Positions 1,286 through 54,149 of a stretch of 64,000 nt of DNA are shown in pieces (position 1 is the first letter of the stretch; each line of letters begins with the position of its first letter). Location: contig NZ_CP085135.1 of assembly GCF_020616515.1 (NCBI RefSeq), forward strand, positions 3,348,001 to 3,412,000, read 5' to 3'. This DNA comes from Mesorhizobium sp. PAMC28654. GTDB lineage: Bacteria > Pseudomonadota > Alphaproteobacteria > Rhizobiales > Rhizobiaceae. The position numbers and the translations under genes were made by a program. The notes beneath the pieces are model-generated. The model saw only the letters and a list, made by a program, of their open reading frames with translations, made no database searches and was not told where the DNA came from.

Positions 1286-2668
1286 ATGCACAGCATCGAC
1301 AATTCGAAGACTTCCATCGGCGGCATCAGCGCGGCTCGTGTCGCCGAACTGCGCGAAACCGAGAGCGAGGTCTTTCGCAAGGCGCGGCCGAAATCAGCGG
1401 CCAAGGTCGGCAATGGCCTGCCCGGCTTCTTTGGCGGCGTGCCCATGCACTGGATGAAGGACTGGCCGACGCCGTTTCCGATCCTGGTCGACAGCGCCAG
1501 GGGCGCAGGCATCACCGATATCGACGGCAACCGGCTCGACGATTTCTGCCTAGGCGATACCGGGTCGATGTTCGGCCATTCGCCGCCGCCGGTGGCGCGA
1601 GCCATCCGACGCCAGGCCGGGCGTGGCCTGACCTACATGCTGCCCTCGGAGGACGCGCTCGCCATCGGACCGCTGCTGCAGGAACGGTTCGGCCTGCCCT
1701 TCTGGCAGATCGCGACGACGGCGACCGATGCCAACCGCTTTGCGCTGCGCGTCGCCCGCGCCGTCACCGGCCGCGAAAAGATCCTCGTCTTCAATGGCTG
1801 CTATCACGGCTCGGTCGACGAGACGATGGTGCGGCTGGTCGACGGCAAGCCCGTCAACCGGCCGGGACTCGCCGGCGAGTTCCGCGACCTGACCCGCACG
1901 GCCAAGGTAATCGAGTTCAACGACATCTCCGCCCTGGAAGCCGCGCTCAAAGACAAGGACGTCGCCTGCGTCATCGCCGAGCCGGTGCTCACCAATTCCT
2001 GCATGGTGCTGGCCGATGCCGGTTATCACGACGCGTTGCGCCGCCTGACGCGTGCGGCGGGCACATTGCTGCTGATCGACGAGACGCACACGATCTCGAC
2101 CGGCCCCGGCGGCTACACACGCAAATACGGGTTGGATCCCGACCTGTTCGTGCTGGGCAAGCCGATCGCCGGCGGCGTGCCCGCCAGTGTCTGGGGCATG
2201 AGCGACGAGGTCGCCACGCGCTACGCCGACTACAACAGGACCAAGGAACCCGGCTATTCCGGCATGGGCACGACGCTGTCCGCCAACCCGCTACAATTCG
2301 CGACGATGCGCGCCACGCTCGAAGAGGTGATGACTGAAGAGAATTACGCGCGCATGGACAAGCTGGCGCGGCGGCTCGACGCCGGGCTCAGCGCCGCCAT
2401 CGAGCGAAACCGCCTGCCCTGGCATGTTGCCCGTGTCGGCGCCCGCGTCGAGTTCATCTGCGCTCCCGGTCCGCTGCGGAACGGCGCCGAGGCCGAGACA
2501 GCGCATGCGCCGGAGCTTGAGGCCGCCATCCATGTCGCGCTGGTCAATCGCGGCGTGCTGATCGCGCCGTTCCACAACATGATGCTGATCTCGCCAGCGA
2601 CCAAGGCCGCCCAGGTGGACCGGCTGATAGCCGCCTTCGGCGCGGTTGCGGCAAAGCTTGCGGCATGA
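1286..2668 (+). CDS. Class III aminotransferase, PLP-dependent (aspartate aminotransferase family)
   Basis: A 460-residue enzyme with the fold and motifs of class III (omega) aminotransferases and glutamate-1-semialdehyde aminomutase relatives. It shows a glycine-rich cofactor segment, FNGCYHGSVDE (PLP ring stacking), LLIDETHT with the conserved aspartate near residue 265, and the Schiff-base lysine in LFVLGKPIAGG near residue 292. An AGAGGGG Shine-Dalgarno-like tract lies upstream. The next gene, a glutamine-synthetase-like ligase, overlaps or abuts it. In rhizobia such pairs typically serve catabolism of amines or amino acids, with the ligase gamma-glutamylating the amine. The amino donor cannot be read from sequence. 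The class is certain, the substrate is not. Confidence 0.88.
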   Translation: MHSIDNSKTSIGGISAARVAELRETESEVFRKARPKSAAKVGNGLPGFFGGVPMHWMKDWPTPFPILVDSARGAGITDIDGNRLDDFCLGDTGSMFGHSPPPVARAIRRQAGRGLTYMLPSEDALAIGPLLQERFGLPFWQIATTATDANRFALRVARAVTGREKILVFNGCYHGSVDETMVRLVDGKPVNRPGLAGEFRDLTRTAKVIEFNDISALEAALKDKDVACVIAEPVLTNSCMVLADAGYHDALRRLTRAAGTLLLIDETHTISTGPGGYTRKYGLDPDLFVLGKPIAGGVPASVWGMSDEVATRYADYNRTKEPGYSGMGTTLSANPLQFATMRATLEEVMTEENYARMDKLARRLDAGLSAAIERNRLPWHVARVGARVEFICAPGPLRNGAEAETAHAPELEAAIHVALVNRGVLIAPFHNMMLISPATKAAQVDRLIAAFGAVAAKLAA

Positions 2669-2700
2669 GACAAGCGCGCGAGCAAAACCAGAGTGCCATC

Positions 2701-4086
2701 ATGAACTCCCCTTCGGGCTCTTCGCCCACCGAGGCGCAAGCCTTTCTCGACGCTCATCCCGAGATTGAGGCCTTCGATATCGTGCTGACCGACGCCAATG
2801 GCGTTGGCCGCGGCAAGATCGTGCGCCGGCACGAGCTGAAAAGCATTTTCGAGGGCGGCCGGCACATGCCGATCTCCATCCTCGGCCTCGACATCACCGG
2901 CGAGGATGTGCACGAAACCGGGCTGATCTGGACGACCGGCGACGGCGATCTCAGGGCATGGCCTATTCCGGGCACGCTGGTGCCGCTCTACGGCACAAGC
3001 CCACCGCGCGGCCAGGTGCTGATGGCGATGTATATGCTCGATGGCCGACCAATGTCGTCGGACCCGCGCCTGGCGCTGGCCCGGCAAGTTGAGATATTGG
3101 CCGCGAAGGGTCTCTATCCGGCCGGCGCCTTCGAGCTCGAATTTTTTCTCCTCGCCAATGAACGCGATGGCGACGGCAAGGTGCAGCCGGCTCGCGCCGT
3201 GCTCGACGGCCGCGTCTCGGGCAAGACCGAGGTCTATTCCGTCGACCATCTGCACGGCATGGAGCCGCTGTTTTCCGACATCTATGCGGCCGCCAGGGCC
3301 CAAGGGATTCCAGCCGAGACGGTTATTTCCGAATATGCGCCGGGCCAATACGAATTGACGCTGAACTACCGCAAGGACGTGATGCGGGCCGCCGACGATC
3401 TGGTCATGCTGAAGCGGCTGGTGCGGGCACAGGCGCGCCGCCACGGCGTCACCGCCTGCTTCATGGCCAAGCCGATCGAGAAATATGCCGGCTCGGGCAT
3501 GCATTTCCACGTCTCGCTGCAGGACAAGGCCGGCCGCAACGTCTTCGCCGAAGCCGGCGGCGAGAGCTGGTCGCTGCCGCTGCTCCAGGGGCTTGGCGGC
3601 CTCATCCAGACCATGGCCGAATCGATGCTGGTGTTTGCGCCGCACGCCAACTCGTGGCGGCGCTTCGTCTCGCAATCCTATGCGCCGGTGGCGCCGACCT
3701 GGGGCGTCAACAACCGTTCGGTGGCGCTGCGCGTACCCGCTGGCGACGCCAGGAACCGGCGCATCGAACACCGGCCGTCGGGCGTTGACGCCAATCCTTA
3801 CCTGATTGCGGCAACCGTGCTCGCGGGCATCATCAAGGGCCTCGATGAAGGCCTTGATCCCGGACCGGAGACGACCGGCAACGGCTATGAGTCAGCGATC
3901 ACGCGCACGACGATGCCGGTGGACTGGCGCGCCGCGATCGAGGCGGCGAGGGCTTCCACCTTCCTCAAGGATGCACTGGGCGAAGACCTGCACCGCACCT
4001 TCGTGGCGATCAAGCAGTCCGAATACCTGCGCGTGGCACGCACGGTCAGCGAACTGGATTACCACCTCTATCTCCACGAGGTCTGA
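2701..4086 (+). CDS. Glutamine synthetase family protein (gamma-glutamylamine synthetase-like)
   Basis: 461 residues from ATG 2701. An alternative ATG at 2665 overlaps the preceding stop codon and would add 12 residues; neither start has a strong ribosome binding site. The catalytic domain has the family signatures: AFELEFFL (metal-binding glutamates), YAPGQYELTL, GSGMHFHVSLQD (ammonia/metal site), and NRSVALRVP followed by RRIEHRPSG (ATP/glutamate site). Non-GlnA members such as PuuA ligate glutamate to an amine using ATP. The location directly behind a class III aminotransferase fits amine or polyamine catabolism rather than ammonia assimilation. It lacks the adenylylation loop I would expect of GlnA-I, but I have not aligned it. 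Confidence 0.85.
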   Translation: MNSPSGSSPTEAQAFLDAHPEIEAFDIVLTDANGVGRGKIVRRHELKSIFEGGRHMPISILGLDITGEDVHETGLIWTTGDGDLRAWPIPGTLVPLYGTSPPRGQVLMAMYMLDGRPMSSDPRLALARQVEILAAKGLYPAGAFELEFFLLANERDGDGKVQPARAVLDGRVSGKTEVYSVDHLHGMEPLFSDIYAAARAQGIPAETVISEYAPGQYELTLNYRKDVMRAADDLVMLKRLVRAQARRHGVTACFMAKPIEKYAGSGMHFHVSLQDKAGRNVFAEAGGESWSLPLLQGLGGLIQTMAESMLVFAPHANSWRRFVSQSYAPVAPTWGVNNRSVALRVPAGDARNRRIEHRPSGVDANPYLIAATVLAGIIKGLDEGLDPGPETTGNGYESAITRTTMPVDWRAAIEAARASTFLKDALGEDLHRTFVAIKQSEYLRVARTVSELDYHLYLHEV

Positions 4087-4101
4087 CCCCAGGAGGATTT
4101 G

Positions 4102-4125
4102 AGGCGGCGATCACTTTCGCCGCCT
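4102..4125 (+). terminator. Stem-loop after the glutamine-synthetase-like gene
   Basis: A perfect 9-base-pair GC-rich stem (AGGCGGCGA with TCGCCGCCT) closes a 6-base loop 15 bases after the stop codon. No T-run follows, so it is either a weak or Rho-assisted terminator or a 3' mRNA-stabilising hairpin. Confidence 0.5.
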
Positions 4126-4174
4126 CCCATCAAATGTGGTGGCGTGCCGGTCGTTTGGAACATATCATGAACGG

Positions 4175-5410
4175 ATGACCGCACTCACCGTTCTCGAAAA
4201 GCTGGCGATCCTGTCCGATGCCGCCAAATATGACGCATCCTGCGCTTCATCGGGCTCAGCCAAGCGCGATTCGCTGAAATCCGGGGGCATCGGCTCCACG
4301 GAGGGCATGGGCATCTGCCATTCCTATGCGCCGGACGGTCGCTGCATTTCGCTGCTGAAGATCCTGCTCACCAATTTCTGCATCTATGATTGCAGCTATT
4401 GCATCAACCGTTCCTCGTCGAATGTGCGGCGCGCCCGCTTTACCGTCGACGAGGTGGTCAAGCTGACCATGGATTTCTACCGGCGCAACTATATCGAGGG
4501 CCTGTTCCTGTCCTCGGGCGTCATCCGCTCGCCAGATGAGACGATGGGCGAGATGGTCGAAGTGGCGCGGCGGCTGCGGCTGGACGAGAAGTTTTCCGGC
4601 TACATCCATCTGAAGACCATCCCGGAAAGCTCGGCGGAACTGGTCGAGAAGGCAGGCCTCTATGCCGACCGGCTGTCGATCAATGTCGAGCTGCCGACCG
4701 ATGAAGGCGTGAAGAAGCTGGCGCCGGAGAAGAAGCCTGAGACCATCCGGCTTTCGATGGCCAATCTGCGGCGCAAGATCGAAGAGAAATCGGAGCCGAC
4801 GCTGAGGACCAAAAAGCGCGAACGCTTCGCGCCGGGCGGACAATCGACGCAGATGATCGTCGGCGCCGACAAGACCTCCGACGACGGCATCCTGCACACC
4901 AGCGCGCGGCTCTATGGCAGCTACCATCTGCGGCGCGTCTACTATTCCGCGTTCAGCCCGATTCCGGATTCATCGTCGTCGCTGCCCTTGCAGAAGCCGC
5001 CGCTGATGCGCGAACACCGGCTCTATCAGGCCGACTGGCTGATTCGCTTCTACGGGTTTTCGCAGCCGGAAATCCTGGCCGGCAGCAGCGACGGCATGCT
5101 TGACCTCGCCATCGATCCGAAGCTCGCCTGGGCGCTGCGCAACCGGGGGCAATTCCCCGTCGACATCAACCGCGCCGACCGTGAAGCGCTGCTGCGCGTG
5201 CCCGGCCTCGGTACCAAGGTGGTGGCGAAAATCCTGGAGACCCGCCGCCATCGGCGCATGCGGCTCGAAGATGTCGGACGGCTGTGCCAGTCGATCACCA
5301 AGCTACGGCCGTTCATCATCGCCGAGGGATGGTCGCCGGGCGCGCTGACCGACGGGGCCGGCTTGCGCGGCAAGATCGTGCAACCTTGCGAACAACTGTC
5401 GCTGTTTTGA
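4175..5410 (+). CDS. Putative DNA modification/repair radical SAM protein
   Basis: 411 residues from ATG 4175; a GTG at 4136 would add a non-conserved 13-residue tail. The radical SAM cluster motif CxxxCxxC is at C69, C73 and C76 (FCIYDCSYC). A helix-hairpin-helix DNA-binding segment follows near residues 329-358 (INRADREALLRVPGLGTKVV), so a SAM-radical chemistry domain is joined to a DNA-contacting one. This is the family annotated as putative DNA modification/repair radical SAM protein (TIGR03916, recalled from memory). It typically travels with a UDG-like partner, and here that partner starts 2 bases after this stop codon, so the two are almost certainly co-translated. The reaction is not known. 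Confidence 0.88.
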   Translation: MTALTVLEKLAILSDAAKYDASCASSGSAKRDSLKSGGIGSTEGMGICHSYAPDGRCISLLKILLTNFCIYDCSYCINRSSSNVRRARFTVDEVVKLTMDFYRRNYIEGLFLSSGVIRSPDETMGEMVEVARRLRLDEKFSGYIHLKTIPESSAELVEKAGLYADRLSINVELPTDEGVKKLAPEKKPETIRLSMANLRRKIEEKSEPTLRTKKRERFAPGGQSTQMIVGADKTSDDGILHTSARLYGSYHLRRVYYSAFSPIPDSSSSLPLQKPPLMREHRLYQADWLIRFYGFSQPEILAGSSDGMLDLAIDPKLAWALRNRGQFPVDINRADREALLRVPGLGTKVVAKILETRRHRRMRLEDVGRLCQSITKLRPFIIAEGWSPGALTDGAGLRGKIVQPCEQLSLF

Positions 5411-6882: not shown

Positions 6883-8148
6883 CTATCGAACCAGGATCGC
6901 CCGCAGATCATTGACGTTCGTGCCGGTCGGGCCGGGCACGAAAAGATCGCCGACGGCGTCGAATGCCGTCCAGGCATTGTTGCCCGCCAGCATGGCCTTG
7001 GCATCCACACCCGCCGCGCGCATCCGCGACACCGTCGAGCCATCGGCGAAGGCGCCGGCATTGTCTTCCGAACCGTCGATGCCGTCGGTGTCGGCGGCCA
7101 GCGCATGGATACCTTCCGCGCCATTGATGGCGATGGCGAAGGCTAGAAGGAATTCCGAATTCCGGCCGCCCTTGCCCTTGGCGCGGAGCGTTACCGTTGT
7201 CTCGCCACCGGACAGGATGAGAACCGGCTTCGGGAAGGGCCGGTTGCGCGTTGCCACTTCGCGTGCGATTGCCGCATGGACGCCGCCGACCTCGCGCGCT
7301 TCGCCCTCGATTGAATCGGAGAGGATGACGGCCTCTATGCCTTGGCGCCTGGCTTCCGCTGCCGCTGCTTCCAGCGAGACTCCAGCCGAGGCGATCAGAT
7401 GCACTTCGTTTTGCGAAAAGCGCTGATCCTCGGGGCTTGGCGCATCGGCGGCCGGCGAATTGATATGCGCCATCACTGACGCCGGCAGCTTCATGCCGTA
7501 GGCGGCGATCGACGCCAGCGCGTCTTCCCGGCTGCCGGAATCAGGAACGGTCGGACCGGAAGCGACCAGCGCCGGATTGTCGCCGGGAATATCGGAAACG
7601 ACCAGGGACACCACCCTGGCCGGCCAGGCGGCGGCGGCCAGCCGACCGCCCTTGATGGTGGAAACATGCTTGCGGATGGTGTTCATGGCCGCGATCGGCG
7701 CGCCGGAGGCGAGCAGCGCCTCGTTGACGGCGATCTCGTCGGCCAGCGTCAAGCTTCCCGCTGGCGATGGCAGCAGCGCCGAGCCTCCGCCGGAAATAAG
7801 GGCCACGACGAGATCGTCCGCTGTCAGACCCTGCACCTTTGCCAGCAGGCGGCGCGAGGCCTCGAGCCCTGCGGCATCCGGCACGGGATGCGCGGCCTCG
7901 ATGATTTCGATGCGCTCGCATTTGGCGCCATAGCCATAGCGGGTGACGACCAGCCCTTCGATCGGCCCGTCCCAGACCCTCTCGAAGGCCGCGGCCATCT
8001 GTGCCGAGCCTTTTCCCGCGCCAATGACGATGGTGCGACCCTTGGGCTTCGCCGGCAAATGATCGCGGATCGTGCGTTGCGGATCGGCGGCCGCGACGGC
8101 GGCGTTGAAGACCGATGTGAGGAAGAGCTTGGGGTCCATGCCGGTCAT
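6883..8148 (-). CDS. Glycerate 2-kinase (MOFRL family)
   Basis: 421 residues, normal length for type II glycerate kinases (GckA/TtuD). The N-terminal domain contains GAGKGSAQMA and LISGGGSALLPSP; the C-terminal MOFRL domain contains LSGGETTVT, GGRNSEFLLAFA and ADTDGIDGSEDNAGA. It phosphorylates D-glycerate at C2 using ATP. The start codon overlaps the stop of the upstream UPF0303 gene (ATGA at 8145-8148), so the two are translationally coupled. Neighbouring purine degradation genes end in glyoxylate, and glyoxylate is commonly assimilated through tartronate semialdehyde and glycerate, so a role at the end of that route is reasonable but inferred. It converges with udgX 9 bases away. Confidence 0.92.
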   Translation of the reverse strand: MTGMDPKLFLTSVFNAAVAAADPQRTIRDHLPAKPKGRTIVIGAGKGSAQMAAAFERVWDGPIEGLVVTRYGYGAKCERIEIIEAAHPVPDAAGLEASRRLLAKVQGLTADDLVVALISGGGSALLPSPAGSLTLADEIAVNEALLASGAPIAAMNTIRKHVSTIKGGRLAAAAWPARVVSLVVSDIPGDNPALVASGPTVPDSGSREDALASIAAYGMKLPASVMAHINSPAADAPSPEDQRFSQNEVHLIASAGVSLEAAAAEARRQGIEAVILSDSIEGEAREVGGVHAAIAREVATRNRPFPKPVLILSGGETTVTLRAKGKGGRNSEFLLAFAIAINGAEGIHALAADTDGIDGSEDNAGAFADGSTVSRMRAAGVDAKAMLAGNNAWTAFDAVGDLFVPGPTGTNVNDLRAILVR

Positions 8149-8648
8149 TTTTCTTCCGGAGCCAGGGCCAGGCCGCTCTTGTCGATGCCGAGGTGATCGC
8201 AGAGCGCATCAACGACCACACCATGATCCTCGCGCTCCGGCAGGCCGGACACCGCGATCACGCCGATGACGCCAGCGCCGTTGACCGTGACCGGAAAGCC
8301 GCCGCCGGCGAGCACAAAGTCCGATATGTCCAGCCCTTCACCGACCTTGAAGGTGCGGTCGGGGCGCTGCTGCTCCAGCACCATGCGATAGGTACTCCTG
8401 AGAAACCGGCGGACGACATTGATCTTGCGCCGCGCCCAGTCCGGGTTGGAAGCATTCGAACCCGGCATTGCGGCATAGAACATCGGCCGGTCGAAGGTGC
8501 GGATATCAACAATGACGGGCAGGTTTTCGGCGAGAGCGCGGTCGCGGATGGCCGAACCGATCTTGAAGGCCACGGCCTCATCGAAGGCCGGGAAGACAAG
8601 AACCTCTTCCTGTTTCTTGATCAGAGCGATGTCGTCGGCAACGGCCAT
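8145..8648 (-). CDS. UPF0303 / heme-degrading domain (GlcG/HbpS-like) protein
   Basis: A 167-residue single-domain protein of the GlcG/HbpS/PduO-C fold as found in the UPF0303 family (often labelled heme-degrading domain-containing). Typical features are the Gly-rich core LAGGGFPVTV and GVIGVIAVSGLPEREDHGVVVDAL. It overlaps the glycerate kinase start by four bases, implying co-expression. GlcG-like proteins are frequently encoded in glycolate/glyoxylate operons without a settled biochemical role, which agrees with the neighbour here. No signal peptide is visible, so it should be cytoplasmic. Confidence 0.82.
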   Translation of the reverse strand: MAVADDIALIKKQEEVLVFPAFDEAVAFKIGSAIRDRALAENLPVIVDIRTFDRPMFYAAMPGSNASNPDWARRKINVVRRFLRSTYRMVLEQQRPDRTFKVGEGLDISDFVLAGGGFPVTVNGAGVIGVIAVSGLPEREDHGVVVDALCDHLGIDKSGLALAPEEK

Positions 8649-45883: not shown

Positions 45884-46123
45884 TTAGTTGTTGCCGAAGA
45901 GATTGCGGTCCGCACCCTGAGGGGCGGGCTTCGCCGTGTCATGCGACGAATTGAGCAACTTGTAGACCGGCGAGTCGCTGTTGGCGATCGACGCCGTCGG
46001 CGTCTTGTCGACATTGACGATAGCCTGCTGGTCGGGGCCGTTCGAGCCGTAGTGGTCACTGCCGGCGAAAGCCGTACCCGAGATGGCCAGAAGGGTTGCG
46101 GCGGTGAGGATGATCTTTTTCAT
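45884..46123 (-). CDS. DUF680 small secreted protein, divergent copy
   Basis: 79 residues from the ATG at 46121-46123, preceded by AGGAG. The signal peptide MKKIILTAATLLAISGTAFA is followed by GSDHYGSN and a C-terminal QGADRNLFGNN tail, both shared with three downstream neighbours. The middle (PDQQAIVNVDKTPTASIANSD) is different and longer by 10 residues, so this is the oldest or fastest-changing member of the array. It is the last gene of the array on the minus strand. Function unknown; probably periplasmic or secreted. Confidence 0.88.
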   Translation of the reverse strand: MKKIILTAATLLAISGTAFAGSDHYGSNGPDQQAIVNVDKTPTASIANSDSPVYKLLNSSHDTAKPAPQGADRNLFGNN

Positions 46124-46193
46124 TTCAAGTACTCCTAGATTTCGATATCCGCCGGAGAAGCAGGCCATGCCCACTCCTCCGCGGTCGGCAGCA

Positions 46194-46403
46194 TTAGTTG
46201 TTGCCGAAGAGGTTGCGGTCGGCGCCCTGTGTGACGGGCTGCTGCTTGGCAGCCGGTTCCGACTTCTTGATGGAAGCGGTGTACGAGCTGTCGACGGTGT
46301 TCGCGGCCTGATTGGCGTCATTGGAACCGTAGTGGTCGCTACCAGCGAACGCGGTGCCGGAGATTGCCAGGAGGGTGGCGGCGGTGAGGATGATCTTTTT
46401 CAT
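46194..46403 (-). CDS. DUF680 small secreted protein, tandem copy
   Basis: 69 residues with the signal peptide MKKIILTAATLLAISGTAFA. The mature 49-residue part is rich in Ser, Asn, Ala and Gln and lacks cysteine, ending QGADRNLFGNN. The protein is identical to that of 46472-46681. Start at 46401-46403 with AGGAG upstream. The whole unit, including its leader, repeats with a 278-base period. Confidence 0.9.
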   Translation of the reverse strand: MKKIILTAATLLAISGTAFAGSDHYGSNDANQAANTVDSSYTASIKKSEPAAKQQPVTQGADRNLFGNN

Positions 46404-46749: not shown

Positions 46750-46959
46750 TTAGTTGTTGCCGAAGAGGTTACGGTCGGCGCCCTGCGTGACGGGCTGCTG
46801 CTTGGCAGCCGGTTCCGACTTCTTGATGGAAGCGGTGTACGAGCTGTCGACGGTGTTCGCGGCCTGATTGGCGTCATTGGAACCGTAGTGGTCGCTACCA
46901 GCGAAGGCGCTGCCGGAGATCGCCAGAAGGGCGGCGGCAGTGAGAATGATCTTTTTCAT
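46750..46959 (-). CDS. DUF680 small secreted protein, first gene of the tandem array
   Basis: 69 residues. The mature sequence is identical to the two central copies; the signal peptide differs by two residues (AALLAISGSAFA). Start at 46957-46959 with a GGAGTACC ribosome binding site. As the promoter-proximal member on the minus strand it has a different upstream leader from the others, so the array probably grew by duplication behind it. A promoter should lie in the AT-rich stretch around 47090-47160. Confidence 0.9.
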   Translation of the reverse strand: MKKIILTAAALLAISGSAFAGSDHYGSNDANQAANTVDSSYTASIKKSEPAAKQQPVTQGADRNLFGNN

Positions 46960-47475
46960 TTTTGGTACTCCAGTATCTTTTTCCGTCCGTCTAGCGGCGT
47001 GTCTTGGAAGGAATTCGCGTCGTTCGGACAGCCCCGATGTGGGTAAGACATCCGGCGGTTTCCAATCACGAAGTTGTTCCGTGTGGACCATGAATCCACA
47101 CCTTGAAATTGTGCCAGGCGACTCCAGACGAACTATTTAAATGTTTATTATCAGATACTTATGTAAATTTCACTCGCAGGTTTGCCAAGCTGTTCGTGAG
47201 CTGGCGTTCACACCGCCCTGCACGCACTGTCAACAGAAACGAACCGTTCGGTTCGATTTTAGAAACAGCTAATAGTCACTTTTCGAAACTGTTAACGTTT
47301 TTTAACCATTCCGCGGGCCAAGCCCGATGGGCGAATCGCCCATTTGTCGCTGGCAAAGTGCCTTCCCTGCCACAAGTCAGGACCACTCCGTTTCGGATGC
47401 GTGTCGCGCCACATGGATGCGATGTCGCTTTCATGCCGATGTCGCAAACGTTGTCGTGATTAGATCGTGTCATCT
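46960..47475. other. Gene-free AT-richer divergent promoter region
   Basis: No gene is supported. The segment 47100-47300 is clearly more AT-rich than its surroundings (for example ATTTAAATGTTTATTATCAG), as expected for promoters of the DUF680 array to the left and of the riboswitch transcript to the right. A small hairpin CGAACC-GTTC-GGTTCG is at 47240-47255. Short open frames here lack ribosome binding sites and family features. Confidence 0.5.
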
Positions 47476-47660
47476 CAGGTGCCGGTTCGAGACAAACGAA
47501 GCGGAGAATTGGGAAGCCGGTCGAAATCCGGCGCTGCCCCCGCAACGGTGGTGGAGTTCAAGTCGCAACGGGAGACCACTGGGCCAAGGCCTGGGAAGGT
47601 GTCGCGACCGTCCAAATGGACACTCCAGAGCCCGGAAACCAGCCCGAGATTTTTGAACTC
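47476..47660 (+). ncRNA. Cobalamin (B12) riboswitch
   Basis: The segment carries the conserved landmarks of the adenosylcobalamin riboswitch in order. There is a GGTGCC-like start (AGGTGCCGG at 47477), the core AATTGGGAAGCCGGTCGAAA with TCCGGCGCTGCCCCCGC and AACGGT (47508-47548), CCACTGGGCC then TGGGAAGG (47576-47599), and a B12-box-like AGCCCGGAAACCAGCC (47629-47644). It lies about 130 bases upstream of the gbcA start on the same strand. Such elements normally reduce expression when B12 is plentiful. The recognition is by sequence pattern; folding was not computed. Boundaries are approximate. Confidence 0.93.
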
Positions 47661-47776
47661 GACTGATCGCGGTGGGCGGTCAAGAGGTGGATCGTGCATG
47701 TCCGGCGCATTGCCGGCCTGCGTCCAATCCTTCCTCTCTTCCCCTCCGGTTCAGTCCTTGAATGCGAGGACAGGAC

Positions 47777-49022
47777 ATGGACGCACGCAATGATATGCTG
47801 AGGCTGCTGCACAGCCGCAGGGAAGGCTTCTCCCTCGAGCAGCCCTTTTATACGGACCCGGAATACTTCAAGCTCGACATGGAGCTGATCTGGTATCGCG
47901 ACTGGCTGTTCATCGGCCATGATTGCGAACTGCCGAAGCCCGGCAGCTACATCACCGTGCAGATCGGCGACTACCCGGTTGTGCTGGTGCGAGACCAGAA
48001 GGGCAATATCAACGCCTTCCACAATTCCTGCCGCCATCGTGGCAGCCGCGTCTGCAACACCGAGAAGGGCACGGCGGCAAAGCTCGTCTGCCTATCACCA
48101 GTGGACCTATGAACTGGATGGTCGCCTGCTGTTCGCCCGGCAGATGGCGGATAGCTTCGACAAGAGCCAGTTCGGCCTGAAGCCGGTCGCCTGCGAAAGC
48201 GTCGGCGGCTACATCTTCATCTGCCTGGCCAAGGAGCCTGTCGATTTCGCGCCGATGCGGGCGATGGTAGAGCCCTATCTTCTGCCGCACCGGCTGCGCG
48301 ATGCGAAAGTCGCCTTCGAAAGCACGATCGTCGAGAAGGGCAACTGGAAGCTGGTCTGGGAAAACAACCGCGAGTGCTACCATTGCGCCGGCAACCACCC
48401 GGAACTGTGCAAGACATTCCCGGAAGCGCCGACAGTGACCGGCGTGCAGGGCGCCGACAGCGATCCTGAAATGCTCGCGCATTGGGCGAAGTGCGAGGCG
48501 GCGGGCTTGCCAAGCAGGTTCCGCATCGATCCGGCCGGGCAGTATCGCGCCACCCGCGCGCCGCTGCTGCGCGATGCCGTCAGCTACACGATGACGGGAA
48601 AGCGCGCCGTGAAGAAGAACCTTTCCGACAGTGTTTCCACTGACCGGATCGGTTCGCTGCTGCTCTACCATTACCCAACGACGTGGAACCACATCCTTGG
48701 TGACCACGCGGTGACCTTCCGCGTGTTGCCGATCAGCGCCACGGAAACGGCGGTGACGACGAAGTGGCTGGTGCACAAGGATGCGGTTGAAGGCGTCGAC
48801 TACAACCTCGACGAACTCACCCATGTCTGGACCGAGACCAACGACCAGGATCGCCGCATCGTCGAGGAAAACGCCTTCGGCATCCTGTCTCCCGCCTACG
48901 AGCCAGGCCCTTACTCGGAGTTGCATGAGGGCGGCGTCATCCAGTTCGTCGAATGGTACGCGTCCTTCATCGGCCCGCGCCTTGCCGAAGGCGGCCGGCC
49001 GGCGCTGCGCAGTGTCGCCTAG
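47777..49022 (+). pseudogene. gbcA: Glycine betaine demethylase-type Rieske oxygenase (GbcA), frameshifted
   Basis: An aromatic-ring-hydroxylating dioxygenase alpha subunit of the GbcA kind, whose Pseudomonas relative oxidatively demethylates glycine betaine to dimethylglycine. From ATG 47777 the frame reads well through the first Rieske ligands CRHRGS, then shifts at 48091-48093. The second ligand motif should read CPYHQW, but two bases are missing after C48092, so translation from the start ends at 48112 after 111 residues. The rest continues in another frame to 49022, with the mononuclear iron site NRECYHCAGNHPELC intact. Repaired, it would be 415 residues. Either a true inactivating deletion or a sequencing error. 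Confidence 0.88.
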
Positions 49023-49091: not shown

Positions 49092-50198
49092 ATGAACGCG
49101 ATGACTGACCTTGGCCTCTATCGCCATCTCGACCAGATGGCGCCCTGGAACGACAGGCTTCAGGTGCTGGAAGTGATCGGCGTGAGCGACGAGGCGCCGG
49201 ACGTGAAGACCTTCACCTTCCGCTCCGACAACCAGACCTGGTTCCGCTACAAGCCGGGGCAGTTCGTGACACTGGAACTGCCGACAGCCGACGGCCCGCT
49301 GATGCGCACCTATACGCTGTCATCTTCGCCGTCGCGGCCATTCTCGATCGCGGTGACCGTGAAGGCGCAGGCGGGCAGCATCGGCACGCGCTGGATGTTC
49401 GACCATCTGAAACCCGGCACTCACGTCAAGGCCTATGGCCCGACAGGCGACTTTTCACTGCACAGCCACCCGGCCGCGAAGTACCTGCTCATTTCGGCCG
49501 GCTCCGGCGTCACGCCAATGATGTCGATGCTGCGCTGGTTGAACGACTGCGCGCCATGGACCGACGTCGGCTTCGTCAACTGCGCGCGGCGCCCGGAGGA
49601 GATCATCTTCCGCAAGGAACTCGAACTGCTTGGCGGCCATATGCCGGGCCTGTCGCTCGGCTTCATGATCGAGGAACGGTCCAGCCGCGAAGGCTGGTAC
49701 GGGCACATGGGCCGGATCGACGCGATACGTCTGCCGCTGCTGGCGCCCGACTTTCGCGACCGCGAGATCTTCTGCTGTGGTCCCGACCCCTTCATGCGCG
49801 CCGTGCGCGGCATGCTGGAAGCCACGGGTTTCGACATGGCCCACTACCACCAGGAGAGCTTTGCCGCTCCCATCGTGGAGGAAGTGCCGGCACCCTTCGC
49901 TTCGCCGGCGGAGGGCGTCGAAACGGTTGTGGAAGTCACGGTGCCGATCCGCTTCTCGCTTTCGGACGTCGATGCCGAATGTGTTGCCGGCCAGACAGTG
50001 TTGCAGACGGCCCGCGCTTCAGGGGTCCGGATTCCCGCCGCTTGCGAATTCGGCCTGTGCGGGACCTGCAAGGTGAAGAAGGTCGCGGGCGACGTCGAAA
50101 TGAGCCACAATGGCGGTATCCTCGATCATGAGGTCGATGACGGCTTCATCCTCGCCTGCTGCTCCAAGCCACTGTCGGCGCTTGAAATCGAGGCCTGA
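49092..50198 (+). CDS. gbcB: Glycine betaine demethylase reductase component (GbcB)
   Basis: 368 residues from ATG 49092 with GAGGG upstream. It has an FAD-binding ferredoxin-reductase domain (FRYKPGQFVTLELPT, RTYTLSSSPS), an NAD(P)-binding domain (LLISAGSGVTPMMSML, FCCGPDPFM) and a C-terminal plant-type 2Fe-2S ferredoxin domain with CEFGLCGTCKVKK and the final ligand in ILACCSKP. It passes electrons from NAD(P)H to the Rieske oxygenase. It is intact although gbcA is frameshifted. It lies downstream of the same B12 riboswitch and is probably co-transcribed with gbcA. Confidence 0.92.
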   Translation: MNAMTDLGLYRHLDQMAPWNDRLQVLEVIGVSDEAPDVKTFTFRSDNQTWFRYKPGQFVTLELPTADGPLMRTYTLSSSPSRPFSIAVTVKAQAGSIGTRWMFDHLKPGTHVKAYGPTGDFSLHSHPAAKYLLISAGSGVTPMMSMLRWLNDCAPWTDVGFVNCARRPEEIIFRKELELLGGHMPGLSLGFMIEERSSREGWYGHMGRIDAIRLPLLAPDFRDREIFCCGPDPFMRAVRGMLEATGFDMAHYHQESFAAPIVEEVPAPFASPAEGVETVVEVTVPIRFSLSDVDAECVAGQTVLQTARASGVRIPAACEFGLCGTCKVKKVAGDVEMSHNGGILDHEVDDGFILACCSKPLSALEIEA

Positions 50199-50344
50199 TC
50201 CGGCCACGGCCAAACCGATCCCCAAAAATGGCCCGCGCCGCGCCGGCGCCCTTGTCTTGCCAAGGCGGACCCGACTGTTTACAGGCCTTGTCGAGGGGTG
50301 GAACGATCGCGACTGACGGGGATCGCGGAGCAGGGCCAGGACCA

Positions 50345-50776
50345 ATGCGTCATTCCGATGTTTACGCGATTGCAAGCAAGGATATCGTCTTTGAGTCTTT
50401 CGACGGCGAGGCCGTGGTCCTCGATCTGTCGACCGGCAAGTATTTTGGCTTCTCCGATTCAGGCAGCAGGCTCTGGCAGGCATTGTCGTCGGGTATTTCC
50501 GCCCAAGCCCTGGTTGGCCAATCGGCCGGTGGCGCGACGATAAGCATTGCCGAACTCGAAGGTTTCATTTCACGGCTGCTCGAATTCGGGCTGCTCGCGC
50601 CTCTAGCCGACACGCCGGCGCAACCCGTTTCGGCCGACCGTCTTGCCGAGCTCGCCCAGACCCGCGAACCGATCAAGGTCGAGGTTCATGACGATCTCGC
50701 CGACCTTATCATCGTCGACCCGATCCATGAGGTCGAAGAGCCCCAGGGCTGGCCGGCGGTCAAGCAGACATCGTGA
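50345..50776 (+). CDS. PqqD-like peptide chaperone of the HprK-related kinase A cassette
   Basis: 143 residues from ATG 50345, with CAGGG upstream. The first 95 residues have the PqqD fold pattern (FESFDGEAVVLDLSTGKYFGFSDSGSRLWQAL), in which PqqD relatives bind a precursor peptide for modification. The C-terminal 50 residues are acidic and apparently specific to this subgroup. It precedes an HPr-kinase-like gene by 55 bases, the pairing annotated elsewhere as the HPr-rel-A system. No rSAM, YcaO or lasso cyclase gene is nearby, so the modified peptide is unknown. Confidence 0.85.
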   Translation: MRHSDVYAIASKDIVFESFDGEAVVLDLSTGKYFGFSDSGSRLWQALSSGISAQALVGQSAGGATISIAELEGFISRLLEFGLLAPLADTPAQPVSADRLAELAQTREPIKVEVHDDLADLIIVDPIHEVEEPQGWPAVKQTS

Positions 50777-50831
50777 GCACCCATGCCTTGCGCACCTTCA
50801 CGTTGCTGGCCGGCACGGGGATAGGCCAGCC

Positions 50832-51881
50832 ATGCAGCGTGTCACTCTTGAAAACCTGACGGACTATGCCCGCCATGTGATTGAGGCGGCTGAGAGCAAC
50901 GCTGACAGCTACCCCATCACCAGCACGGTGCGGCTGCCGGGGCTGGGCCTTACAGTGCATGCGGGCCACGGCCCGCTGGCGGATGCCGTCAAGCAGGCCT
51001 TTGTTGGGGCTCCCGATAGCCAAGCACCGTGTGCCGACTGCCGCATTTTCGTCGCGCATCCAGGTATCGGCGCCATTCCTGAGCCGGCGGCATGGGGCCA
51101 GGGGCATTTCACGCCGCAGTCCTTCGCCAGCAAACTGGCCGATGCCGGGCTGCGCGGCAGTTATTTCCACGATCTGGATTTCTGGCAGTTCTACGATCCG
51201 GACCGACGCGTCGGCGCCCAGTTGATGAGATCAGCCGACAGTTTTCCGCCTTGGGAGCCAGGGGCTCCACTGCGAGCTTTCCTGCATTGGGAGTATGCGG
51301 CGCGCGGCATGCGGCTGGCTCACGCCGGAACCCTGGGCATCGGTGGCAAGGGCATTCTGCTCGCCGGCGCGGGCGGGTCCGGGAAGTCTGGAACGGTCGT
51401 CGCCGGTTTGCTCAACGGGCTTGACAGTGTCGGTGACGATTATGTGTTGACCGACATAGTCGACGGAGTGACCGCTTATCCATTGTTTGCGACGCTCAAG
51501 CAGGACCCCAAAGGTTTCAGGCGATTGGGGTTGCAGCACAGATTAAAGTCCCGCGGCCCGCTGAACTGGCAGGGGAAGCATCAGTTTCTTCTGGAAAATA
51601 TCGCGGTGCAAACAACGCCCGCACGTCTGGACATTGTTGCATTGTTGGTGCCAAGTATCGGCGGGAGTGGGGTAAGCTCGATAATGTCGTTATCGCGCAA
51701 GGATGCCATGATTGCCTTGGCGCCGTCTGGTATTGCCCAGATGCCGGGCGAACGGGAAAGCGGCTTCCGCTTTTTCGGTGAGTTGACGCGCCTTTTGCCA
51801 TGCTACCGGCTGTCTCTTGGGACACGGCCGGAGGAGATAGCAGGTACGATTTCGGAATTTCTGGCGCGAGGCAATGCATGA
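50832..51881 (+). CDS. HprK-related kinase A
   Basis: 349 residues from ATG 50832. The C-terminal half is an HPr-kinase-like P-loop domain with Walker A GAGGSGKSG at 179-187 and the acidic motif GDDYV at 201-205. The N-terminal half (about 1-160) is specific to this family and has no HPr-serine recognition motif that I can see. HPr kinases phosphorylate a serine on a protein, and a homologue in lasso-peptide clusters phosphorylates the precursor peptide. The PqqD-like gene upstream suggests a peptide target here too. The start of the next gene overlaps its stop (ATGA). Confidence 0.85.
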   Translation: MQRVTLENLTDYARHVIEAAESNADSYPITSTVRLPGLGLTVHAGHGPLADAVKQAFVGAPDSQAPCADCRIFVAHPGIGAIPEPAAWGQGHFTPQSFASKLADAGLRGSYFHDLDFWQFYDPDRRVGAQLMRSADSFPPWEPGAPLRAFLHWEYAARGMRLAHAGTLGIGGKGILLAGAGGSGKSGTVVAGLLNGLDSVGDDYVLTDIVDGVTAYPLFATLKQDPKGFRRLGLQHRLKSRGPLNWQGKHQFLLENIAVQTTPARLDIVALLVPSIGGSGVSSIMSLSRKDAMIALAPSGIAQMPGERESGFRFFGELTRLLPCYRLSLGTRPEEIAGTISEFLARGNA

Positions 51882-52630
51882 AGCTCAGCGTGATCATGCC
51901 GGTCTACAATCGCGAAAAGTATGTCGTCCCCGTCTTGCGATCCCTGCTCAGGCAACGCGACGCAGCCGAGCTCGACATCATCGTCATCGACGACGGCTCG
52001 ACCGACGGATCGGCCAAGGCGGTGCGCGCGATGATGAGCGAGGCACCGTGCATCCGCCTTTTCCAGCAAACCAACCAGGGTGTCGCCAAGGCGCGCAATC
52101 ATGGGCTGAGGCGATTGCTGCCGCAAACCGAGCTCATATCGTTTCTCGACTCCGACGACATTTCGCCCGCCGGACGATTCAAGGCCGACCTTGCCCGCTT
52201 CGAGACCGATCCCAGTCTTGAACTGACCTATTCGCTGATGAAGCTGGTCGACACCATGGATGATGAGGCGCTGGAGCCGGCTGCCAACACCAGGTCCCTG
52301 ACCGTCCGGGGGCTTTCCTTGAGCGCTGGGATATTCACCCGGAGGCTGGTCGATCGAACAGGCGTTTTCGACGAGGCGTTCAGCCAGGCCGAAGACACCG
52401 ACTACCTGCTGCGCATATTTGAAAGCGGCGCGAGATTCGTCATGCCCGATACCGTGGCAACCTACTACAGGCGCCACCCCGGCAACATGACCAAGGCGCG
52501 GGACGTTCCGCTTCGCGAGTATTTGCGCGCCATCCACAAATCGATGAGGCGGCGCAAGGCGAATCCGTCGCTGCGCATGGTCGAGGGTATCTTCGACCTC
52601 AGGGATTCCGCCGGTTGGCGCTTCATGTGA
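51878..52630 (+). CDS. Family 2 glycosyltransferase, tandem copy 1
   Basis: 250 residues from the ATG overlapping the kinase stop. A GT-A fold with SVIMPVYNREKYV, IIVIDDGSTDGSA, FLDSDDISPAGRF (DxD metal site) and QAEDTDYLLRIFESGA, with the late motif YYRRHPGNMTKARD. It is soluble, with no membrane segment. It is closely similar to the protein at 52718 over its whole length. The ATGA overlap ties it to the kinase, implying glycosylation of the same substrate. Confidence 0.9.
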   Translation: MKLSVIMPVYNREKYVVPVLRSLLRQRDAAELDIIVIDDGSTDGSAKAVRAMMSEAPCIRLFQQTNQGVAKARNHGLRRLLPQTELISFLDSDDISPAGRFKADLARFETDPSLELTYSLMKLVDTMDDEALEPAANTRSLTVRGLSLSAGIFTRRLVDRTGVFDEAFSQAEDTDYLLRIFESGARFVMPDTVATYYRRHPGNMTKARDVPLREYLRAIHKSMRRRKANPSLRMVEGIFDLRDSAGWRFM

Positions 52631-52631
52631 C

Positions 52632-52718
52632 ATGGTCAATGATGGGATGATTGTCGCCGGGAACGTGGCCCGGGCGGATGAAGCAATCACGGCAAAGCCC
52701 CTGATGCGGGACGGCTGA
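52632..52718 (+). CDS. Possible 28-residue peptide between the two glycosyltransferases
   Basis: A 29-codon frame from ATG 52632 fills the whole gap between the two glycosyltransferase genes. Its stop codon overlaps the ATG of the next gene (TGATG). The product would be 28 residues (starts MVNDGMIVAGN, ends KPLMRDG), with no cysteine and one threonine. No clear ribosome binding site precedes it. It may be a leader for coupling, a decayed gene remnant or chance. Confidence 0.25.
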   Translation: MVNDGMIVAGNVARADEAITAKPLMRDG

Positions 52719-53470
52719 TGAAGCTCAGCGTGATCATGCCGGTCTACAATCGCGAAAAATTTGTCGGCTCGGCGCTGCGCTCTTTGCTGAGGCAACGCGA
52801 TGCCGCCGACCTCGACATCATCGTCGTCGACGATGGCTCCACGGATGGGTCGGCCGATGTCGTGCGAACGCTCATGGACGAAGCATCGTGCATCCGCCTT
52901 TTCAGCCAGGCCAATGCCGGCGTGACCAAGGCGCGCAACAGCGGCCTGCGGCAGTTGCCACCGCAGACCGAGTTCGTGTCATTCCTCGACTCCGACGACA
53001 TATCGCCGGCCGGACGCTTCAAGGCGGATCTTGCCTGTTTTGCCGGGGATTCCGGGCTTGAACTGACGTATTCCCTGATGACACTGGTCGACAATATCGA
53101 CGACGAGGCGCTGGCGCCGGCCGCGGACGCCAATTGCGTGACAGTTCGCGGAATTCACTTGTCAGCTGGGATTTTCGCGAGGAACCTCGTCGACCGAACC
53201 GGCGGCTTCGACGAGGCATTCCAGCAAGCCGAAGATACCGACTATCTGCTGCGCGTCTTCGAGAGCGGGCCGAAATATGTCATGCCTGACACGGTGGCGT
53301 TGTATTACAGGCGTCATCCCGGCAATATGACCAAGGAGGCCGATGTTCCAGCTCGAGAATTCATGCGAGCCATTTACAAATCGATGACTCGGCGCAAGGC
53401 TAACCCCTCACTGAAACGAATAGAGGGCATCTTCGATTTCAAGGATCTCGCCGGCTGGCGTTTTATGTGA
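52718..53470 (+). CDS. Family 2 glycosyltransferase, tandem copy 2
   Basis: 250 residues, equal in length to copy 1 and, by eye, roughly 70 percent identical, including an identical first stretch MKLSVIMPVYNREK and the end AGWRFM. Motifs are IIVVDDGSTDGSA, FLDSDDISPAGRF and QAEDTDYLLRVFESGP. The two genes clearly arose by local duplication. The differences concentrate in the acceptor-side half, so a second sugar or linkage is possible. Confidence 0.9.
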   Translation: MKLSVIMPVYNREKFVGSALRSLLRQRDAADLDIIVVDDGSTDGSADVVRTLMDEASCIRLFSQANAGVTKARNSGLRQLPPQTEFVSFLDSDDISPAGRFKADLACFAGDSGLELTYSLMTLVDNIDDEALAPAADANCVTVRGIHLSAGIFARNLVDRTGGFDEAFQQAEDTDYLLRVFESGPKYVMPDTVALYYRRHPGNMTKEADVPAREFMRAIYKSMTRRKANPSLKRIEGIFDFKDLAGWRFM

Positions 53471-53471
53471 G

Positions 53472-54149
53472 ATGTCGAGCTACAGCGTCGTCATCCCGGC
53501 CTTCAATGCGGCCGCCACCATCGCTGAAACCCTGCGATCTGTCGTGGCCCAGTCGATCAAGCCCGAAGCCATCATCATTGTCGACGATGGCTCGACCGAT
53601 GACACTGTGGCCGTGATCAACGCAATGAACCTGCCGGTGCGGGTGCTGCGCCAGGAAAACGAAGGGCCTGGAAGCGCCACCACCAGAGGCTTTGCCGCGC
53701 TGTCGACGCCGCTCGTCGCGACGCTGGATGCCGATGATCTATGGTTGCCTAACAAGATCGAGGAACAGTTCGCGCATTTCAGCCGATCTCAGGGGACATC
53801 CGGTGTTTTTACGCATATGCGCAGTTTCCGCGATGATCGGCCCGATGCCGCCGAAGTCGCCGCCGTTCCCGGCTGGTCGCGCTCGACAATGATGATCCGC
53901 CGCGAGGTCGTCGACGCCGTCGGGCCGATCGTCGATCCGACTGGCGGGCGCGGTGAGATGATCGACTGGATCGCGCGCGCACGCGAGGCGGGTTTCATTC
54001 TCGACATGCTGGGGCAGGCACTGGCGTTGCGCCGCATCCGGCCCGGTAGTCTGTCTCATGGACGCGATGCCCAGCGCGATCGCGGCTACGTCGAGGTTGC
54101 CCGGCTGGCAATGCAGCGCCGGGCCCGGAACAAGGCGGGCTCCGCTTGA
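53472..54149 (+). CDS. Family 2 glycosyltransferase, third of the cassette
   Basis: 225 residues, a shorter and more distant GT-A glycosyltransferase: SYSVVIPAFNAAATIAETLRSV, IIIVDDGSTDDTVAVI and TLDADDLWLPNKIE. It starts one base after the preceding stop, and its own stop overlaps the nucleotidyltransferase start (ATGA at 54146-54149). The sequence VPGWSRSTMMIRREVVDAVG resembles the acceptor domain of sugar-adding enzymes acting on surface or peptide substrates. Confidence 0.88.
   Translation: MSSYSVVIPAFNAAATIAETLRSVVAQSIKPEAIIIVDDGSTDDTVAVINAMNLPVRVLRQENEGPGSATTRGFAALSTPLVATLDADDLWLPNKIEEQFAHFSRSQGTSGVFTHMRSFRDDRPDAAEVAAVPGWSRSTMMIRREVVDAVGPIVDPTGGRGEMIDWIARAREAGFILDMLGQALALRRIRPGSLSHGRDAQRDRGYVEVARLAMQRRARNKAGSA

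Follow-up and report, generated by a model that had tools for sequence, protein, structure and literature searches.

Several B12-independent enzymes, among them NrdAB, MetE, and MesXD, have B12-dependent alternatives. Among the closest described parallels to the element considered here are the riboswitches of metE and nrdAB. In those systems as in ours, an RF00174 leader stands before an enzyme that needs no B12, and a B12-dependent counterpart, a proposed one in our case, is encoded in the genome; in two of our loci (L041 and L125; L numbers denote loci and G numbers genomes), the operons are even adjacent. The difference lies in the enzyme, since the Rieske oxygenase and reductase pair examined here is neither a ribonucleotide reductase nor a methionine synthase but probably a catabolic, O2-dependent N-demethylase. 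The portions of PMC3766115 used here include a class named “isozymes of B12-dependent enzymes.” In the corresponding portions of PMC9600662, a B12-independent enzyme is repressed through a riboswitch and is aligned with the B12-dependent enzyme to which it corresponds; neither Rieske proteins nor betaine are mentioned. A preliminary description of our locus counted B12-independent isoenzymes among the known targets of B12 riboswitches, without linking the Rieske gene to that class.

On the enzyme side, GbcAB of Pseudomonas and Chromohalobacter provides the best curated model for both subunits. The clade examined here differs from it in scoring under the cut-offs (526 against 670 bits for the oxygenase and 360 against 500 for the reductase) and in carrying a riboswitch leader. 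A relative of solved structure, matched at about 537 bits, is the proline betaine demethylase Stc2, which we take to be the protein in PDB entries 3vca and 4qup (depositors' titles, “Ring-hydroxylating dioxygenase” and “Monoxygenase; demethylase”). The Stc2-like group (54–58% identity) differs from our clade in its neighbors and in that the riboswitch is absent from all 10 of its loci.

On the B12-dependent side, glycine betaine demethylation in Ruegeria pomeroyi is cobalamin-dependent and involves the corrinoid protein MtgC and PF06253 methyltransferases (2025, PMC12478193). In the excerpts of that paper considered here, GbcAB is treated as an alternative route in other bacteria, the MtgC of marine roseobacters is distinct from that of an anaerobe, and the word “riboswitch” occurs in a reference title only. 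MtgBCD is our proposed counterpart of the Rieske pair; in the genome that we studied, an MtgC-type protein lies next to DUF1638 and MttB, all three being of kinds implicated in the Ruegeria pathway. Its chemistry is corrinoid methyl transfer, in contrast to the O2-dependent oxidation of the Rieske pair. A further parallel is the methionine synthase MesD/MesX (PMC7857596), which is likewise B12-independent and O2-dependent, and a mesX-mesD-type pair lies under its own RF00174 element in locus L039. This enzyme differs in that it makes methionine, and the main text of PMC7857596 contains no mention of “riboswitch.”

The pairing of a cobalamin riboswitch with a Rieske gene is not described in the titles and opening lines of abstracts that we found in the open PMC literature. 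The 2003 tables of B12 elements (Vitreschak, Rodionov), however, reportedly include an “ardX-frdX” operon in rhizobia, which we suppose could be this same pair; the pairing as such may thus already have appeared in a table. In the part of PMC545781 consulted, frdX denotes a different ferredoxin gene.

We argue below that the Rieske pair is probably a B12-repressed, B12-independent isozyme, following the logic of metE and nrdAB, that serves as a spare for corrinoid-dependent demethylation of quaternary amines.

The leader and the gene pair

In the window, by which we mean the whole 64-kb stretch of DNA that was analyzed, RF00174 is the sole Rfam family at gathering level. Its match (cmscan, E 1.2e-23) covers model positions 1–189 of 189 and lies well above the gathering score of 31.5 bits (Table 1), and a genome-wide search returns the same site. 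The preliminary description had placed a B12 riboswitch upstream of this gene pair, which the covariance model bears out; the distance it gave, about 130 bases, is corrected to 115 nt between the end of the aptamer and a start codon at 47,777 that is conserved in relatives (MDAR/MDTR...). The window's genome, 6.70 Mb in one contig, contains four RF00174 riboswitches in total, and the other three precede DUF1636 and cobW, DUF1636 and an ABC ATPase gene, and cbtA-type genes. Two similar small open reading frames on the minus strand (45,884–46,321 and 46,750–47,091) diverge from this operon; both have secretion-signal-like stretches, and the second frame matches DUF680.

Table 1. Features of the riboswitch-Rieske locus, in window coordinates
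Feature	Position	Strand	Basis
Cobalamin riboswitch aptamer	47460..47661	+	RF00174, complete model, 99.4 bits
P13-like hairpin, GATCG-CGGTGGG-CGGTC	47665..47681	+	Loop motif in relatives' leaders
Predicted hairpin over ribosome-binding site (about 47767-47776) and start codon	47745..47781	+	Fold energy
Rieske oxygenase subunit gene, GbcA-like, frame broken	47777..49022	+	NF058607, PF00355, PF00848
Reductase subunit gene, GbcB-like, intact	49092..50198	+	NF058606, PF00970, PF00175, PF00111

The oxygenase gene is interrupted, a point missed in the preliminary description. According to the list of open reading frames, its first frame ends in a stop at 48,112, and a different frame carries the remainder. 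Compared with three relatives aligned beside it, the window is two bases shorter at this point, which could reflect either a sequencing error or a real loss. Most copies among 99 genomes of the genus are open, those of G037 and G070 also being broken, and the riboswitch and reductase gene of the window are intact despite the broken oxygenase. The domains of the pair are Rieske and ring-hydroxylase together with the FAD, NAD, and 2Fe-2S domains of the ferredoxin-type reductase, with no B12-binding part among them.

GbcA and GbcB are the closest curated models for the two subunits. Searched apart, the two parts of the oxygenase score 146.1 and 361.3 bits against the GbcA model, and an intact same-genus ortholog scores 525.9 bits, all below the cut-off of 670; the reductase scores 359.4 bits (360 for its ortholog) against the GbcB model, below the cut-off of 500. 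The designation of the pair as a gbcA-gbcB glycine-betaine demethylase in the preliminary description is therefore firmer than these scores allow. A scan of 5.8 billion proteins yielded 5731 matches at E 1e-100, and among the 120 of these that were listed, the names are generic, one being “glycine betaine catabolism A.”

The region 3' of the reductase gene (50,228–54,149) contains an open reading frame that just passes the PqqD cut-off (23.5 against 23.4 bits, a borderline match) and, as judged by eye, an HprK-type kinase-like frame and glycosyltransferase-like frames; it resembles a peptide or polysaccharide modification cluster. In seven other loci, a conserved protein of ~90–108 amino acids is encoded 3' of the reductase gene (L039, 9464–9742; L040, 17,883–18,197; L044, 8011–8328; L056, 4676–4951; L066; L071; and L073); the copy in L040 matches nothing in Pfam or NCBIfam.

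Between the aptamer and the gene lies a putative expression platform. Its first element is a hairpin that we presume to be P13, as we presume L5 to be the name of a C-rich loop of the aptamer. Relatives' riboswitch leaders contain the loop motif of P13 in 159 of 162 cases (151 distinct sequences), and all five stem pairs form in 154 of the 159, with changes on both sides between groups (A-U to G-C and C-G to U-A); these counts come from our own script, which includes no null model. The P13-like loop could kiss L5. The second element is the hairpin predicted over the ribosome-binding site and start codon, whose fold energy is −18.1 kcal/mol (z −1.84, 8 of 200 shuffles being equally good). Across 22 aligned leaders, 100% of cells are paired in P13, 87% in the sequestering helix, and 92 and 96% in two anti-sequestering helices, well above the 24–53% obtained when the same helices are slid by 1–3 columns. 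In these 22 leaders, however, both-sided covariation is absent from all four helices and column shuffles are not beaten. What we say of the switch beyond P13 is therefore a proposal, according to which the hairpin over the start codon would be the OFF form, and in the ON form, its 5' arm would pair with a P13 strand instead. A translational OFF switch is thus the favored, although not proven, mechanism, with adenosylcobalamin assumed as the ligand. In some same-genus leaders (L010, L014, L019, and L024), about 80–110 extra, inverted-repeat-like bases separate the ribosome-binding site from the proposed sequestering arm and could either disturb or insulate the switch.

Conservation and neighboring genes

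The position of the riboswitch upstream of the Rieske oxygenase gene is conserved. Within the genus, RF00174 lies upstream of 29 of 29 best orthologs (L010–L038) and of 5 of 5 further copies (80–84% identity) for which upstream sequence is available (L039, L040, L041, L042, and L044), making 35 of 35 leaders when the window is included. Such a copy is carried by 65 of the 99 genus genomes, about half of which were examined for the riboswitch. In other genera of the family, the element is found at 47 of 62 loci in a first set and 17 of 29 in a second (64 of 91 together); in the second set, the covariance model confirmed the 17 matches and found none at the remaining 12. Outside the family, the proportion is 4 of 7 and 2 of 7 loci, or 6 of 14. 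No riboswitch was found upstream of two paralogs in the window's own genome (L006 and L007) or at the Stc2-like loci (0 of 10, L108–L117). Among 80 named loci, where calls are by sequence-profile search only and some species overlap with the other samples, 58 have the riboswitch, including those of Mesorhizobium ciceri WSM1271, Aminobacter carboxidus, Inquilinus limosus, and Sinorhizobium fredii USDA 205, and 22 lack it, including those of Agrobacterium tumefaciens UMA610 and Rhizobium phaseoli JHI366. Most named loci with 90–94% identity come from Mesorhizobium, which is probably also the genus of the window.

The neighbors of the pair also differ with the presence of the riboswitch. Homologs of nrdA, nrdB, metE, metH, or mesXD lie within ~6 kb at 16 of 51 riboswitch loci versus 0 of 18 riboswitch-less loci of the clade (Fisher p 0.007); the proteins used as queries exceed the NCBI cut-offs for NrdA, NrdB, MetE, and MetH. 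In L041, nrdAB with its riboswitch is followed by the Rieske pair with its riboswitch and then by metE, again with its own. In L125, one of two back-to-back riboswitches (7845–8363) stands before a NrdA gene (1017 bits, cut-off 620) and the other before the Rieske pair. In L039, metH comes first and then the Rieske pair; next are a second Rieske gene, a formaldehyde dehydrogenase of the glutathione-independent type (719 bits against a cut-off of 637), and the riboswitch, mesX, and mesD-type gene of this locus (1760–4184). Two cobalamin riboswitches also lie back to back in L212 (6109–6622).

Co-distribution with MtgC

In the window's genome, a lone corrinoid protein (PF02310, PF02607) adjoins DUF1638 (PF07796) and MttB (PF06253) proteins. 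It scores below the curated MtgC cut-offs (209.1 versus 370 bits for NF047996 and 172.9 versus 310 for NF047995), and the label MtgC is therefore one given by domains and neighbors. MttB itself, considered as a discriminating trait, was dropped because it is present in all 99 genus genomes, with 3–13 copies in each. We used MtgC instead, with the own-genome corrinoid protein as query and an ortholog call at E 1e-120 or better.

In a first set of 80 genomes, MtgC was present in 46 of 47 genomes with the riboswitch and Rieske gene, in 2 of 18 whose Rieske gene lacks the riboswitch, and in 9 of 15 that have no Rieske gene. The 16 genomes that lack both riboswitch and MtgC gave only weak matches, in frames of 1,172–1,385 amino acids, the length of MetH. 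Seventeen of the 18 riboswitch-less genomes keep RF00174 elsewhere, in no case near the Rieske gene, and the loss of the riboswitch is thus specific to that gene.

For a second set of 80 genomes, expectations were fixed beforehand. MtgC was present in 21 of 23 riboswitch genomes and absent from 11 of 17 riboswitch-less ones (Fisher p 0.0004). The two riboswitch genomes without MtgC belong to a genus with a weak riboswitch and had been flagged in advance. The six riboswitch-less genomes with MtgC are G199 and five of another family, the latter with 57–62% homologs; three of the six (G199, G742, and G744) had been flagged in advance, and the others (G739, G740, and G741) ran contrary to an unhedged prediction.

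When both sets are taken together, MtgC accompanies the Rieske gene in 61 of 64 genomes with the riboswitch versus 2 of 27 without it in the other genera of the family (Fisher p 6.6e-17, a value that ignores relatedness). The exceptions are genus g94 (three genomes, weak riboswitch of 56–61 bits), which has no MtgC, and genus g102 (two genomes), which has MtgC without the riboswitch. In the window's own genus, MtgC is found in 9 of 10 riboswitch genomes, the tenth, G014, being a 940-contig assembly, and in 11 of 11 Rieske-less genomes. Rieske-less genomes of the other genera in the family have MtgC in 24 of 34 cases, which indicates that a Rieske spare is optional. Outside the family, MtgC is present in 6 of 6 riboswitch genomes but also in 6 of 8 riboswitch-less ones (57–62% homologs), so that the absence side of the association fails there.

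A probable B12-independent spare and its alternatives

That the riboswitch tracks MtgC, and that the neighbors include nrdAB, metE, metH, and mesXD, are among the reasons why we favor the reading of the Rieske pair as a B12-independent isozyme. Weighing against it are the scores of the pair and of the corrinoid protein, which fall short of the curated cut-offs, the exceptions to the association with MtgC, and the broken oxygenase gene of the window. The direction of control, the ligand, the substrate, and the identity of the reaction are inferred, as is the premise that the Rieske pair and the MttB/MtgC system act on the same substrate. With adenosylcobalamin in good supply, the fold of the leader would hide the start codon and ribosome-binding site, and MttB/MtgB and MtgC would demethylate quaternary amines, among which glycine betaine is the likeliest. 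When B12 is scarce, the leader would open, and the O2-dependent oxygenase and reductase would take over, releasing formaldehyde in place of methyl transfer to tetrahydrofolate. With somewhat less confidence, we lean toward the more specific view that in alphaproteobacteria, a B12 riboswitch chooses between two chemistries of glycine betaine demethylation, corrinoid transfer and Rieske oxidation, and that the riboswitch decays or disappears once MtgC has been lost.

Of the alternatives, the one that survives best keeps the isozyme logic and changes the substrate: the Rieske pair could replace an MttB paralog that acts on proline betaine, carnitine, choline, or another quaternary amine. It overlaps the preferred reading, which commits to quaternary amines only. 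In its favor are the 3–13 MttB copies of each genus genome and the scores of the clade, which are about equal on Stc2-type chains (537 bits) and on the GbcA model, where they fall below the cut-off; the closest solved structures are 3n0q, 3vca, and 4qup, at about 537–539 bits. Nevertheless, we regard another substrate as possible but doubtful, because the GbcA model gives two Stc2-like relatives lower scores (478 and 491 bits) and because the gene clusters of that group are not those of ours. Stc2-like loci include an old-yellow-enzyme-type gene (labeled StcD-like by eye) in 6 of 10 cases and an MttB-type gene, at PF06253 matches, in 4 of 10, and neither occurs in 62 loci of the window's clade. 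Among 247 genomes of the family, identities in the orthologous group range from 65 to 92%, and below them nothing appears until 56–58%. The identity gap, the lower GbcA scores, and the differing neighbors together mark the window's clade as a separate GbcA-like group, and on these comparisons glycine betaine is the likely substrate.

The association on which the isozyme reading depends could also be incidental, the riboswitch and MtgC having both been kept in certain lineages. We examined this with a gene tree, as distinct from a species tree, of 115 Rieske proteins and five Stc2-like outgroups; the 115 genomes have MtgC in 76 of 80 cases with the riboswitch and 8 of 35 without. On this tree, each trait needs only 14 changes, which, like the exceptions outside the family, is what incidental co-inheritance would allow. 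However, 11 of 14 path-disjoint riboswitch contrasts are concordant with MtgC and none is discordant, the remaining 3 offering no MtgC contrast (sign test p 0.001). The same agreement appears within single genera, where G237 and G145 have both traits and G300 has neither, and where G332 has both and G204 neither. Together with the conserved structure of the leader, these contrasts make mere co-inheritance improbable.

Equally improbable is a role in methionine rescue, in which starvation of MetH for B12 would call on betaine demethylation to supply one-carbon units, via formaldehyde, for B12-independent methionine synthesis. The metH and metE genes that lie within ~6 kb of 8 and 3 of the 51 riboswitch loci, respectively, speak for such a role, as does the riboswitch-mesX-mesD arrangement near the Rieske gene in L039. 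However, MetH-length frames persist in riboswitch-less genomes, where a MetH-based need should therefore persist as well. The related suggestion of the preliminary description, that betaine serves to bypass MetH, does not predict the link to MtgC; genomes that lack both MtgC and the riboswitch still show these frames, and 17 of 18 riboswitch-less genomes of the first set keep other B12 riboswitches. Least probable of all is that description's other proposal, that low B12 raises betaine demethylation so that glycine is supplied for 5-aminolevulinate and the corrin ring: the riboswitch is real and conserved, and betaine stimulates the aminolevulinate precursor and raises B12 yield in fermentation (according to the part of a review, PMC8123684, considered here), but precursor supply predicts no link to MtgC, contrary to the 61 of 64 versus 2 of 27 genomes seen, and the recurrent neighbors that we could recognize are B12-independent isozymes and metH.

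If the Rieske pair is indeed a B12-independent isozyme, it would add a further riboswitch-controlled pair to MetE/MetH and NrdAB/NrdJ, one that serves carbon and nitrogen nutrition and not biosynthesis, and what had been an unexplained riboswitch location becomes a directly testable isozyme pair. It would also offer a genomic handle on aerobic corrinoid demethylation, since the presence of MtgC can be predicted, within the family, from a riboswitch ahead of the Rieske gene. For the organisms themselves, the supply of B12 would decide how rhizobia and their relatives use a major plant osmolyte, tying the status of a micronutrient to the flux of carbon, nitrogen, and formaldehyde.
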